Positions 15,141 to 19,249 of a stretch of 64,000 nucleotides of DNA are shown one piece after another; positions within the stretch are counted from its first letter, which is position 1; the number at the start of each line of letters is the position of its first letter. This DNA is from Thioalkalivibrio sp. XN279. GTDB lineage: Bacteria; Pseudomonadota; Gammaproteobacteria; Steroidobacterales; XN24. Location: assembly GCF_011089885.1 (NCBI RefSeq), contig NZ_JAANBD010000028.1:494389-558388 (forward strand), read 5' to 3'. The notes beneath the pieces are model-generated. The model saw only the letters and a list, made by a program, of their open reading frames with translations. It was not told the DNA's origin and searched no databases. The translations under genes and the position numbers were made by a program.

Positions 15141-16844
15141 ATGAGCCTGTTCAGCTTCTCCCGCCTGACACCGTTCGAGAGACTGCTGTCGGCGCTGACC
15201 TCGGTGCGGCCTGGCGAGGGTCGCGGCATCTTCCTCATGCTGGCGCAGATCTTCCTGCTCATGCTGAGCTATTACCTGCTGCGACCGCTGCGCGAAGCGC
15301 TCATCCTCGCGGAGGGCTCGCCGGAGATTCGCGCCTACGCCACCGGGGCCGTGGCGCTGGTGCTGATCTTCATCATCCCGCTGTACAAGATGCTGTTCTA
15401 TTACCTGAAGAACAGCGGCGGGAAATCGGCCGTGCTGCGCTGGGTCGGCGCCTTCTTCGTCGTCAACCTGGTGATCTTCGCCGCCATGATCTGGCTCGAG
15501 ATCCCCGTGGCGGTGCCGTTCTACATCTGGCTCGGCGTGTTCAGCGTCATGGTCGTGGCGCAGTTCTGGGCCTTTGCGGCGGACCTGTTCAACGTCAAGA
15601 CCGGCCAGCGGCTGTTCGCGCTGATCATGGTCGGCGCCGCGGTGGGCGCCTGGCTCGGCAGCCAGGTCGCGGGCCGGCTGTTCGCCGTCCTCGGCGCGCC
15701 GCGCCTCATGCTGCTGGCTGCCGGCATCCTGGCGGTCACGCTGGTCATCAGCCGCAAGGCCGAGCAGGTAGTGCCCGAGGGCTCACGCAGCATCGATTCG
15801 CGCGACGCGGCCCCGGAGGAACTCAACGGCATCTCGAAGGTGCTGGCGGGCTTCCAGATCGTGGCGCGCAGCCGCTACCTGCTGCGCATTGCGGTGTTCG
15901 TGCTGCTGCTCAACTGGGTCAACTCCACCGGTACCTACATCCTCGCCACCTTCGTCACCGCGCATGCGGACGCGACCGTCATCGCCAGCGGCGGGGCCGT
16001 CACCAGCGGCGAGGTGCTGGCGCGCTTCTATGGCAGCTATTTCGCCTGGATCACCGCGCTGCAGATCGGCCTGCAGCTGTTCCTGGTGTCACGCATCTTC
16101 CGCTGGTTCGGCGTGCGCGGCGCGATCCTGGTGCTGCCGCTGGTGATGGTGACGAGCTACGGCCTGATGCTGCTGGTGCCGGTGTTCGCACTGGTGCGCG
16201 TGATGATGATCGCGGAGAGCGCCACCAATTACTCGGTGCAGAACACCACCAATCATGCCCTGTACCTGCCGGTGACGCGCGACGAGAAGTACGTCGGCAA
16301 GACCACCATCGACACCTTCTTCGCGCGCTTCGGCGACCTGGTCTACGCGGCGATGATCTTCCTCACCGCCCAGGTACTGCTGTTCGACATCAGCTGGATC
16401 ATCGCCATCAACCTCGGCCTGGCCGTGGTGCTGGTGACCCTCGGCATAGGCATCGGCCGCCACCACCGCAGCGAGATCCGGCAGAACCTCGCCAACCTGC
16501 CGCCGGTGGTGAATGCGCGGCTGCCGGACGTCTACGTGCCGGCCGGGCAGATGCTGGTGTTCACCGTGCCCGAGCACGCCTTCCTCGATCCGGACCCGGG
16601 CGATGCGCTGCGCTTCCAGGCCTGCTGCGGCGACGGCGCTCCGCTGCCCGGCTGGGTCCGCTTCGACGCCTTCAACCACAGTTTCACCATCCGGCCGCCG
16701 CCCGGGGAGAGCGGGACGCTGGAGGTGAAAGTGTCGGCCACCGACTTCGAGGGCCTGAGCGTGGAGTCGGCCTTCGCCATCAGCTACGGCGCCGACCCCG
16801 TGCCCCGCTTCATGGAAGCTGCTGCAGAGCCTGTGCCCGGCTGA
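15141..16844 (+). CDS. ATP/ADP-translocase-like (Npt/TLC family) permease with C-terminal cadherin-like domain
   Basis: The 567-residue protein has about 12 membrane segments over residues 22-435. Its motifs are typical of the NTP/NDP exchanger-like family (TLC, TC 2.A.12): YYLLRPLREALIL, YIWLGVFSVMVVAQFWAFA and ALIMVGAAVGAWLGSQ. After a basic loop (RHHRSEIRQNL) there is a soluble domain of about 100 residues (about 458-560). It reads like a dystroglycan-type cadherin/Ig fold (PGWVRFDAFNHSFTIRPP, then VKVSATDFEGLSVESAFAIS). Known free-living relatives may carry HEAT or nucleotide-binding C-terminal domains; this fusion is unusual. It is co-directional with mutM (10-nt gap). Its 3' end overlaps by 35 nt the convergent exported phosphatase/kinase gene. 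The transported substrate is not proven. Confidence 0.72.
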   Translation: MSLFSFSRLTPFERLLSALTSVRPGEGRGIFLMLAQIFLLMLSYYLLRPLREALILAEGSPEIRAYATGAVALVLIFIIPLYKMLFYYLKNSGGKSAVLRWVGAFFVVNLVIFAAMIWLEIPVAVPFYIWLGVFSVMVVAQFWAFAADLFNVKTGQRLFALIMVGAAVGAWLGSQVAGRLFAVLGAPRLMLLAAGILAVTLVISRKAEQVVPEGSRSIDSRDAAPEELNGISKVLAGFQIVARSRYLLRIAVFVLLLNWVNSTGTYILATFVTAHADATVIASGGAVTSGEVLARFYGSYFAWITALQIGLQLFLVSRIFRWFGVRGAILVLPLVMVTSYGLMLLVPVFALVRVMMIAESATNYSVQNTTNHALYLPVTRDEKYVGKTTIDTFFARFGDLVYAAMIFLTAQVLLFDISWIIAINLGLAVVLVTLGIGIGRHHRSEIRQNLANLPPVVNARLPDVYVPAGQMLVFTVPEHAFLDPDPGDALRFQACCGDGAPLPGWVRFDAFNHSFTIRPPPGESGTLEVKVSATDFEGLSVESAFAISYGADPVPRFMEAAAEPVPG

Positions 16845-18591
16845 CCAGCGCCTGCACCTGGCGCCGGTTGAGCCAGGGGCGGAGCGGCTCGAGCCGTTCC
16901 TCCGTGACGCGCGCCAGCATGGCAGCAAGCTCGGGCGTGATCTCGACGCGTGCGTCTTCCAGCATGTCGGGAATGCCACGCTCCGTGCCGAAGGCACGGC
17001 TGTGGTCGATCAGCCAGACCTGGTGGCGGGCGTCGTACAGCACGTTGCCGAGATTGCGGTCGACGTTGAAGATCAGCAGGTCGAATACGTTCATGAGGTT
17101 GAACTGCGCGGCGATGCTGCAGGGCGTGTCGAGGGGGATGCCGTCACGCTGTCGCTTGCCCTCGTGAAAGCTGTCCGGCAGCCAGTACTGCAGCGTGCCG
17201 GCTTCGCCCTCCAGCGTCCTGGCCACGGCCACCGGCACCATCCCGAGTCCCAGGATGCGGTCGAGCTTGTAGGCCGCGATGTCGTAGACGTGGCGGTCGG
17301 CACGATCGTCCGCGCGCGACCAGCGGCGCTTGCTCTCCAGGCCGGGGTCGGTGTCCATGCTCTTGAACACGCCCTGCATGACCTTGCCGTCCTGCTCCAG
17401 GGTGAGGCGGCGCGGCCGGGTCACGCCTTCGCCCAGCTCCTCCACGCGGGTGATCTCGGCGCTGCGCAGGAAGTCCTCGATCTCGGCGTCCGTCATGCCG
17501 TAGGGCCGGTCCCACTGGCGCACCGGCTCGGCCGCCACGGCGACCGCGCCCGCACCGGGATACCAGGCGAATATCGCGTCGTCCTCGAACACCAGCGCAG
17601 CCGGGTTGCCTTGATAAGCGGCGCGATTCATGCCGGTGTCGACGCGGTAGACCAGGCCGTCGAGGCGACTGGTGAGCCGCCGCTCGGCGGTCGGCGTGTG
17701 CCCGATCACCACCCGCGCCGCACCGAGCGCGGCCAGGATGTCACGCAGCGCCGGCGCCTCGGCCCAGGCATGGCAGCGGGCGTTGCCGCGGTACCAGAGT
17801 ACCCCGTCGGGGTGGAACGGCAGCCCGTCGAGCGCGTCCGCGATCGCGCGCGCCTTGCCTGCCTGCGCTGCTGCCGCCGCGCCCTCTGCCGTGTCCCGCG
17901 CCCAGTCGCGCAGGTCGCCGAAGTCGTCCTCGTCCGCCATGACGCCGGCGGCGAGCAGCGCATGCCATCCATCCGTCACGGTGCGCAGGTCGCCCGCGGC
18001 GGCGCGGTTGATCTCCGCCAGCGACAAGCCCTCGGCGCGGGACGACAGCCCGCCGTGCACGAACAGCGTGTCGTTGATCACCAGTGCGAATGGCAACGTC
18101 AGCAGCCAGCGCCCGTAAGCGCCGTCGGGCGCGAGCGCGGCACGGCGTTCGAAGAAGCCTGCGGGAAAGCCCGCGCGCGCCTCGGCGCCGTACTGGGCAT
18201 AGTCGCCCGCGCTGACATAGCGCAGGTCGCCGACCAGGTTCATCGCCTCGTGGTTGCCGGCCAGCACGTGCACGGCGCCGCCGGCCGCGGCGGCTTCCTG
18301 CTGCAGGCGCATCATGAGGTCCATCACCTGGCGCCCGTGGTCGCCGCGGTTCAGCAGGTCGCCGACCGACACCAGGTGCGTGGCGCCGCCGCTCCAGCGA
18401 TCCTCGGCATCGATCAGGCCGATGTCCCGCAGCAGGCCATGCAGCTCGTCGTAGGCGCCATGCACATCGCCGATGGCGACCACCCGCTCGACGCCCGCGA
18501 TGCGCCATGGCTCGGCCGCATAGCCTGGCGGCGCGGCCAGCAACCACGCGAGGAGGAGAAGAAAAAAGAGTCTCGTCGCAATCAGGCGCAT
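16810..18591 (-). CDS. Exported PPP-type phosphatase fused to FAM20-like kinase domain
   Basis: The 593-residue protein has a signal peptide (about 1-26, LFFLLLLAWLLAAPPGYAA). Residues 35-330 form a calcineurin-like phosphoesterase with all metal motifs: GDVHG (41-45), GDLLNRGD (77-84), GNHEA (112-116), VHGG (178-181) and GHTP (297-300). Residues about 380-540 look like an atypical kinase of the FAM20/PI4K/HipA type: GVFK410 (candidate ATP lysine), IAAYKLDRILGLGMVPV (438-454, very like secretory kinase FAM20C), NVFDLLIFNVDRNLGN (501-516, catalytic D511) and LIDHSRAFG (527-535, metal-binding D529). Both domains appear intact and should act outside the cytoplasm. It is the last gene of the run rsmD-coaD-ggt-unknown-this, 49 nt after the unknown gene. 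Substrates are unknown. Confidence 0.78.
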   Translation of the reverse strand: MRLIATRLFFLLLLAWLLAAPPGYAAEPWRIAGVERVVAIGDVHGAYDELHGLLRDIGLIDAEDRWSGGATHLVSVGDLLNRGDHGRQVMDLMMRLQQEAAAAGGAVHVLAGNHEAMNLVGDLRYVSAGDYAQYGAEARAGFPAGFFERRAALAPDGAYGRWLLTLPFALVINDTLFVHGGLSSRAEGLSLAEINRAAAGDLRTVTDGWHALLAAGVMADEDDFGDLRDWARDTAEGAAAAAQAGKARAIADALDGLPFHPDGVLWYRGNARCHAWAEAPALRDILAALGAARVVIGHTPTAERRLTSRLDGLVYRVDTGMNRAAYQGNPAALVFEDDAIFAWYPGAGAVAVAAEPVRQWDRPYGMTDAEIEDFLRSAEITRVEELGEGVTRPRRLTLEQDGKVMQGVFKSMDTDPGLESKRRWSRADDRADRHVYDIAAYKLDRILGLGMVPVAVARTLEGEAGTLQYWLPDSFHEGKRQRDGIPLDTPCSIAAQFNLMNVFDLLIFNVDRNLGNVLYDARHQVWLIDHSRAFGTERGIPDMLEDARVEITPELAAMLARVTEERLEPLRPWLNRRQVQALVSRAQALQQLP

Positions 18592-18640: not shown

Positions 18641-19249
18641 TCACTCTAGCTCCGGATGGCCCCACGGCGTGGGCGGGAGAGCCACCGGCGCCGCGAGGTC
18701 GAACTCCACCCGGAACAGCCGCCCCGAAGGCCGGGACAGCTCGTAGACGAAACGTTCGCCCGGCGCGATCTCCATCGCCCAGGTGTTCTGCAGCGAGGCC
18801 GCCAGGCCCTCGCGCTGGAACATGGCGACGGAGTGCTGGTCCACGGGAAACTCCTGGCGCCATGGCGTGCCCGGCCCGGTGCTGTCGCCGCCGTACTGGG
18901 TGACGGCGTCCTCGCTGCCGTCCTCGTGGCGGTGGTCGTGCTTCAGGCGCAGCCCCTCCGGCGTGCGGGTCAGCACCCAGGTGCGGCTGTGGTCGTCGCC
19001 GACATGGAAGGGAATCTTCAGCTCCCCGGGCGTGCATTCGCGCACGTGCATCACCAGCGCCTTGCCGGCGAAAGGATCGTCCGGCTGCGGCGGCTCGTTG
19101 GCCACGATGCGCCCGGCGAAAGCCTGGCCGCAATGGCTCGCAATGCGCGCCATGAAAGCATCGGGCGGATACATCTCGGAGCTCGCCGGCAGCGCCGCAG
19201 CGCCAAGGCCGAGACACAGGAACAGCACGCCACGGTTCAGTAAGTCCAT
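18641..19249 (-). CDS. Secreted protein of unknown function
   Basis: The 202-residue protein has a signal peptide (LLNRGVLFLCLGLGAAALPASS) and a mature part that begins MYPPDAFMARIASHCGQAFAG. It has two cysteines in the mature part (HCGQAF and RECTPG), which may form a disulfide. A HDHRHEDGSEDAVTQYGG loop and a beta-rich C-terminus (FVYELSRPSGRLFRVEFDL) are also seen. I do not recognise a catalytic family; it resembles conserved hypothetical secreted proteins of gammaproteobacteria. It overlaps the end of ggt by 13 nt and precedes the phosphatase/kinase gene by 49 nt, so all three exported products are probably co-expressed. Confidence 0.6.
   Translation of the reverse strand: MDLLNRGVLFLCLGLGAAALPASSEMYPPDAFMARIASHCGQAFAGRIVANEPPQPDDPFAGKALVMHVRECTPGELKIPFHVGDDHSRTWVLTRTPEGLRLKHDHRHEDGSEDAVTQYGGDSTGPGTPWRQEFPVDQHSVAMFQREGLAASLQNTWAMEIAPGERFVYELSRPSGRLFRVEFDLAAPVALPPTPWGHPELE

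Follow-up and report, generated by a model that had tools for sequence, protein, structure and literature searches.

What might a bacterial protein do that carries a phosphatase at one end, a kinase-like fold at the other and an apparent export signal? The question is raised by a 64,000-nucleotide stretch of the genome of Thioalkalivibrio sp. XN279 (contig NZ_JAANBD010000028.1, positions 494,389 to 558,388; the whole stretch is called the window here), in which an open reading frame (ORF) of 593 residues plus stop, with an ATG start, occupies 16810..18591 on the minus strand. An initial annotation had given its coordinates and strand exactly. Our tentative answer, which we hold to be nearly as probable as its opposite, is that the gene encodes an exported soluble kinase/phosphatase working outside the cytoplasm, and that a neighbouring transporter of the NTT family feeds it with ATP.

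The two halves of the fusion protein

An assembly artefact was rejected as the origin of the fusion, since the frame is uninterrupted in the source genome and further fusions turn up throughout the order as well as in other phyla. The protein starts with MRLIATRLFFLLLLAWLLAAPPGYAA, a signal-peptide-like N-terminus (about residues 1-25, 18517..18591, predicted cleavage near ...GYAA), and continues with a Shewanella-like PPP phosphatase domain (about residues 30-345, 17557..18504) and a FAM20/PI4KII-like kinase domain (residues 362-593, 16813..17508); these and the other features of the fusion gene given below lie on the minus strand. The full-length model has a pLDDT of 93.1 and a pTM of 0.90, with low confidence in its N-terminal part. 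The signal peptide claimed in the initial annotation fits this N-terminus, and a hydrophobic segment (12-residue Kyte-Doolittle mean of at least 1.8) precedes the first domain in 106/106 fused and 46/49 stand-alone ORFs, compared with 32/775 internal control windows; scoring covered ORFs with a complete first domain and at least 20 residues before it, some records being counted twice. Judged from sequence, the window protein has an export signal and probably leaves the cytoplasm, and most of the stand-alone relatives look exported too. The fusion ORFs at four loci (L076, L078, L093 and L099) are 846-1403 aa long and have long additional N- or C-terminal regions.

The initial annotation had placed a secretory-kinase or PI4K-like fold past residue 380, with a resemblance to FAM20C. 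A profile made from 14 homologous kinase domains (A1), searched against all Protein Data Bank (PDB) sequences, matched FAM20A (E = 2.4e-8), a FAM20B-type xylosylkinase (1.5e-6) and FAM20C (1.4e-5); FAM20 was the sole family below an E-value of 0.001, and outside it nothing fell below 0.33, the value for PI4KII. The predicted structure of the domain, built with 67 sequences, has a mean pLDDT of 95.7. Foldseek ranked FAM20 structures first to fourth, followed by PI4KII, and VIA-align returned PI4KII with Z 18.1 (3.6 Å, 217 residues), hydra FAM20 with Z 18.0 (3.7 Å, 219 residues) and HipA with Z 11.9 (4.4 Å, 192 residues), so that no unrelated fold emerged from the comparison with FAM20C-type and HipA structures. 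By profile and by model, residues 362-593 can be placed with the FAM20 kinases, PI4KII being structurally tied. A HipA-type kinase was rejected as the best description, given that HipA structures reach a Z of about 12 versus 18 and that the protein has a signal peptide.

Database profiles gave weaker matches. With the window kinase part alone, Pfam returned HipA_2 (PF20613, E = 0.003; 17.5 bits, below its 27-bit cut-off), Fam20C (E = 0.1; 12.7 bits, below its gathering score of 26.8 bits, which speaks against FAM20 membership) and a weak match to PI3_PI4_kinase. Among the 14 profile members, HipA_2 and Fam20C each matched ten domains at E ≤ 1 (best 2.4e-5 and 3.2e-4, respectively). NCBIfam TIGR03843, the SCO1664 family, matched all 14 (best E = 2.8e-13) and the window protein at E = 1.4e-12, its 47.5 bits lying below the cut-off of 172.4 bits; a search of four genomes with this model recovered only the fusions. 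PF06702 had no match in 185 class genomes, but equally none in 14 control genomes, so that this negative carries no weight. A role in anti-phage defence was discarded, PADLOC yielding just a 14.5-bit match to the catalytic loop.

The hydra FAM20 and FAM20C structures contain four disulfides (PMC5865150), and the window protein has a single cysteine, C491, in residues 362-593, which leaves the conserved FAM20 disulfides absent. Because of this single cysteine and the score below the Pfam cut-off, the kinase half is FAM20-like and not a FAM20 member; the likeness to FAM20C drawn in the initial annotation therefore holds for fold and residues, but not for membership.

The kinase motif residues are all present and are conserved in the intact class of relatives. 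They comprise K410, the predicted ATP-binding lysine (17362..17364); D432 (17296..17298), which aligns in PDB alignments with the FAM20-type ion-pair acid; D511, the predicted catalytic base in NVDRNLGN (17059..17061), followed by R512; N516, a predicted metal-binding asparagine (17044..17046; N in 96/107 intact domains); and D529, the predicted metal-binding aspartate in LIDHSRAFG (17005..17007). The protein thus shows the FAM20 pattern of a D/E ion-pair residue five positions before the alpha-C acid, a catalytic DR and a metal-binding D. In FAM20 the residue aligned with D432 forms an unusual ion pair with the ATP-binding lysine (PMC5865150); FAM20C has E in this alignment column, the FAM20B-type enzyme D and the pseudokinase FAM20A Q.

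K410, D511 and D529 occur together in 107/163 related domains when repeats are counted, in 91/146 when each distinct domain is taken once, and in 15/47 fusion genomes of the order; the loss from all close homologues that the initial annotation had allowed for did not occur. Position 432, which was left out of the definition of this class, is D or E in 107/107 domains that keep all three (91/91 distinct) and in 2/41 that lack two or more (2/40 distinct). Since residue 432 covaries with the three catalytic residues although it lies outside the class definition, there is good evidence for selection on a FAM20-type active site.

The phosphatase half was detected by Pfam Metallophos at E = 1.1e-13. 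Its best PDB match is the Shewanella cold-active protein-tyrosine phosphatase (PTPase; E = 2.3e-30), which also ranked first when the full-length model was compared with known structures (Z 35 over 271-272 residues; next Z 22.8), and because it tops both searches the phosphatase half belongs with the Shewanella-like PPPs (Shelphs). Identification as a nucleotide enzyme (ApaH, Pnkp) was rejected, the matches being at the level of motifs and far below cut-offs. The six metal ligands D42, H44, D78, N113, H179 and H298 are all present, each being conserved in 50 to 52 of 52 aligned fusions, and they are nearly invariant also in a 30-row set from the order that contains both intact and degenerate kinases. 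GDXHG, GDXXDRG and GNH(E/D) are PPP motifs and (I/L/V)D(S/T)G is the signature of bacterial-type PPPs (PMC535813); the window protein has VDTG at residues 317-320 and matches two of the three PPP motifs exactly, the second reading GDLLNRGD with N81 (18349..18351) in place of the aspartate that is found in 46/52 aligned fusions. The complete calcineurin-like metal site of the initial annotation holds as to the ligands, with the correction that this second motif departs from GDxxDRG.

It is possible, though in our view unlikely, that the C-terminal domain is instead a lipid kinase or a small-molecule or glycan kinase (PI4KII-like or FAM20B-like) acting on an envelope component, with the phosphatase acting on the same or another target. 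The structural tie between PI4KII and FAM20 and the weak PI3_PI4_kinase matches in 6 of the 14 members are consistent with this, as is the phosphorylation of a sugar by FAM20B (PMC5865150). The profiles, however, prefer FAM20 (1e-8) to PI4KII (0.33), and the Shewanella relative of the phosphatase is tyrosine-specific, although the specificity of bacterial-type PPPs is said to be unpredictable (PMC535813).

Loss and retention of the kinase site

Among 147 genomes sampled from the order, the fusion was found in 47, of which 15 have an intact kinase site and 32 a degenerate one; one further genome (G044) has a phosphatase fragment at a contig end and was counted apart. Here, and in the tree and transporter-distance counts below, intact means that K410, D/E432, D511 and D529 are all present, and some of the locus and domain counts contain records twice (such as L031 and L141) unless given as distinct. 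Every one of the first 30 sequences compared is a fusion, and one of them is truncated at a contig end. When GTDB genomes were scanned with the kinase profile, 152 loci resulted, the best 80 of which were collected; the scan patterns LID[HQ]SR... and ...AAY[RK]LD favour intact kinases. The matched ORF has a PPP domain at 55 of these 80 loci and none at 25, the latter mostly from Acidobacteria and Aminicenantes.

A tree of the phosphatase domain alone was built from 92 non-identical fusion rows, picked for having most of that domain (shorter rows were dropped); 48 of them have an intact kinase and 44 fail at least one of the four kinase residues. The kinase state changes at least nine times on this tree, four of the changes being forced by well-supported branches, and because of this the kinase site must have been lost repeatedly, at least four times, while the fusion persisted.

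In nine Aminicenantes clusters the two functions are arranged differently. The PPP ORF stands immediately ahead of a kinase-like ORF in L104, L109, L100, L102 and L083, and in L108 it ends at 1103, the kinase-like ORF beginning at 1096; in L092, L107 and L110 the two domains are fused. At all nine loci the kinase that adjoins or is fused to the PPP is degenerate, two or three further kinases that are intact and have no PPP come after it, and all nine also have an NTT gene. By analogy only, this resembles the pseudokinase FAM20A beside FAM20C. Several of these clusters also contain an SdiA-regulated/phytase-like protein (L109:3062-3922, with related ORFs in five loci), which could be a substrate or partner of the kinases. 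These split-gene and pseudokinase relatives go beyond the initial annotation, as does the NTT neighbour. What that annotation observed is confirmed, and its interpretation is supported with amendments on family membership and on N81.

An alternative is that the kinase half serves chiefly to regulate the phosphatase, as a nucleotide sensor, scaffold or dimerisation domain, with kinase catalysis secondary or fading. The 44 of 92 distinct fusions that fail at least one kinase residue and keep the phosphatase domain (for which the rows were chosen) would be explained in this way, as would the retention of D504, N509 and R512 in 38 to 40 of the 41 strongly degenerate domains and the degenerate kinases beside or within the Aminicenantes PPP proteins; FAM20A provides a precedent as the pseudokinase activator of FAM20C (PMC5865150). 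The window copy is nevertheless fully intact, and 107/163 domains retain K, D/E, D and D together, which points to selection for catalysis in those lineages. We regard the regulatory role as improbable for the window protein, more so than the lipid or glycan kinase.

The neighbouring NTT gene

Convergent with the fusion gene, the 3' ends overlapping by 35 bases, is a gene for a TLC/NTT (ATP/ADP translocase family) transporter (15141..16844, plus strand; the ORF is listed from 15030, and 15141 is the probable start). It scores 35.5 bits against PF03219, above the gathering score of 21, and 16 of 18 aligned NTT neighbours match this family at E ≤ 0.001. A profile of the 18 found two solved ATP/ADP carriers in the PDB (2.8e-20 and 1.8e-13) and nothing else to E = 0.1; as a control, comparison of the kinase alignment with the NTT alignment gave no match. 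An Ig-like (He_PIG) domain lies at the C-terminus of the window NTT and of 6 of the 18 aligned neighbours.

For a census of NTT genes we used an alignment of our own (A5), PF03219 being too insensitive (it misses G007, where an NTT adjoins). At E ≤ 1e-20 this alignment also catches a widespread MFS-like set (126/147 genomes), and hence only matches of at least 280 bits were counted. That cut was set by eye (nearby scores are 335, 291, 269 and 256); the 291-bit match is cut by a contig end and lies in a genome that counts anyway. An NTT was present within the searched stretch at 40 of the 80 collected loci, and lay, measured between domain edges, within 300 nt of the kinase or fusion at 35/80 and within 500 nt at 36/80. 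Measured by the ends of open frames it lay within 200 nt at 36/80, the frames overlapping widely in L077, L091 and L102. At 24 of the 36 loci the NTT follows the kinase or fusion gene in the same orientation, at 3 it precedes that gene in the same orientation, at 7 the two converge and at 2 they diverge. The spread of these four arrangements over Gamma- and Deltaproteobacteria, Acidobacteria and Aminicenantes argues against one inherited block; the Halieaceae loci are near relatives and contribute few independent events. When neighbouring genes were clustered, the NTT family (37 loci) was alone, besides the kinase, in exceeding 14 loci.

Both single-domain NTTs and NTT-HEAT(-cNBD) forms are found near these kinases. 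The long NTTs of the Acidobacteria-type loci L039, L077, L079, L094 and L098 proved to be NTT-HEAT or NTT-HEAT-cNBD in 5/5 scanned; the NTT lies about 1.6 kb from the kinase in L094 and L098, whereas the L039 transporter has its HEAT and cNBD parts in the gap of 1904 nt that separates its NTT domain from the kinase. Major et al. describe the function of such NTT-HEAT(-cNBD) forms as unknown (PMC5381601). Seven loci of one gammaproteobacterial clade (L037, L044, L046, L048, L051, L055 and L059) have two different NTT genes in succession after the fusion gene, on opposite strands.

A strong NTT match occurs in 10/15 genomes of the order with an intact fusion, 6/32 with a degenerate fusion and 3/99 with neither, plus G044; the difference between intact and degenerate fusions has a Fisher p of 0.002, a value that ignores descent. 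Among the fusions of the tree, an NTT lies within 5 kb in 28/48 intact and 4/44 other cases. The linkage of NTT genes with the kinase family is well supported, and that with catalytic competence is suggestive.

The remaining neighbours gave no comparable signal. The gene 49 bases upstream of the fusion gene (18641..19249, minus strand) encodes 202 aa that begin with a hydrophobic stretch and match nothing in Pfam or NCBIfam; of the loci searched, the close relative L031/L141 alone has a counterpart, and the protein is probably no general part of the system. Two sets of 14 loci each are confined to one gammaproteobacterial clade, and some of the smaller sets are antisense frames of the fusion gene. 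Those neighbours that could be identified are ordinary (DEAD helicase, zinc dehydrogenase, dicarboxylate symporter, acetyltransferase, OmpA, HemN-like and histidine-kinase types) and were rejected as partners.

We consider it very unlikely that the NTT imports nucleotides and the fusion processes periplasmic nucleotides in salvage, the adjacency then reflecting nucleotide metabolism and not fuel: a FAM20-like fold is not known among nucleotide kinases, the phosphatase is far nearer to the Shewanella protein-tyrosine phosphatase (2e-30), and NTT genes adjoin stand-alone exported kinases as well. Such a role would accord with the characterised NTTs, which come from parasites and endosymbiotic organelles and were studied there for uptake (PMC5381601), and with the diadenosine tetraphosphatases among PPPs, to which the matches here are sub-threshold (NCBIfam E = 5e-8, 33 of 176 bits; PDB E = 0.001 to 0.96).

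Proposed function and relation to known systems

We return to the proposed kinase/phosphatase that would be supplied with ATP from the cytoplasm. Its architecture, export signal, predicted fold, conserved catalytic residues and repeated linkage to an NTT gene were established by computation, and from these we infer both activities, the class of substrate and the export of ATP by the NTT. Outside the cytoplasm, the FAM20-like half would add phosphate and the Shewanella-like PPP half would remove it; the substrates would be secreted or envelope components, most likely proteins and possibly glycans or lipids. The periplasm is taken to make no ATP of its own, and because of this we propose that the NTT-family carrier would fuel the kinase by passing ATP out of the cytosol in exchange for ADP from the periplasm.

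Several observations weigh against this proposal. The family is rare, the kinase being found in 1/299 genomes of a phylum sample, namely the window's own. Kinase function is dispensable, and in the window's own genus the copy at L142 (7246-9231) has lost K410 and D511 with the NTT still adjoining, which looks like a recent inactivation. The covariation of residue 432 is not all-or-none, D or E being present in 12/15 domains that miss one of the three catalytic residues (12/15 distinct). Five of the 15 intact-fusion genomes of the order have no strong NTT match (four of the five are less than 82% complete), and at 32 of 72 collected intact-kinase loci there is no NTT in the searched stretch. 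An independent-pairs test of the association between intact sites and NTT found only four pairs on supported branches, with a median sign-test p of 1, and the association is thus not significant once descent is allowed for. The direction of NTT transport is not predictable from sequence. Finally, in PP1 the aspartate of the second PPP signature supports the catalytic histidine, and so the phosphatase of the window copy could be weakened by N81.

More broadly, some bacteria may possess a full extracytoplasmic system in which exported FAM20-like kinases, with pseudokinases as partners, are opposed by an exported phosphatase, whether fused to them or encoded next to them, and are fuelled by a dedicated ATP-exporting NTT; this wider claim we think rather less likely than not. 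If true, it would give the NTTs of free-living bacteria a function and explain the ATP source of a periplasmic kinase; given a periplasm without its own source of ATP, exported kinases need such an explanation. Because genes for an exported FAM20-like kinase and an NTT are paired recurrently, both problems can be tested in culturable hosts, for example Lysobacter daejeonensis and Parahaliea mediterranea. The pairing is the most interesting lead, the fusion itself being a new variant assembled from known parts. In the open-access full text, outside which lie most subscription papers and bioRxiv, we found no description of an exported PPP-kinase fusion, of such a bacterial FAM20 relative or of an NTT feeding an exported kinase.

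Among known systems, bacterial Pnkp (TIGR04075) resembles the fusion in having a kinase and a metallophosphatase in one chain, and it gave an N-terminal motif match at E = 5e-7; this match comes from shared phosphatase motifs only (28 of 750 bits), and Pnkp differs in that it works in cytoplasmic RNA repair and has a P-loop kinase. The phosphatase half is close to the Shelphs (the cold-active PTPase 1v73/2z72), with 27-32% identity across the domain, a Z of 35 and the VDTG signature, and differs from them in its added C-terminal kinase domain and in N81 replacing the signature aspartate. The nearest annotated bacterial profiles for the kinase half are the SCO1664 family (TIGR03843) and HipA_2 (PF20613), and it scores far below the cut-offs of both. 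The window transporter is in the same superfamily as the NTTs of free-living bacteria (PF03219, including NTT-HEAT-cNBD forms), which are widespread and have no characterised role according to PMC5381601; the word kinase is absent from the main text of that paper, and the linkage to exported kinases was seen in the present analysis.

FAM20C, FAM20B and the pseudokinase FAM20A are like the window domain in being exported and in sharing its fold. Both groups have the blocks (D/E/Q)RH..(D/E)IAA..LDR.L and FD.LI.N.DR, then a metal-binding D before ..F, with the ion-pair acid five residues ahead of the alpha-C acid. In contrast to FAM20, the window protein is bacterial, scores below the Pfam Fam20C cut-off, has one cysteine in its kinase part, is fused to a phosphatase and has N516 where aligned FAM20 chains have E. 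A survey of Legionella (PMC9758233) cites FAM20 as one case of a cluster specific to eukaryotes or Metazoa, and also puts four novel families of bacterial kinases together with FAM20/CotH. If the proposed system exists, FAM20-type secretory phosphorylation would extend to bacteria, with a theme of kinase and pseudokinase like that of FAM20C and FAM20A.

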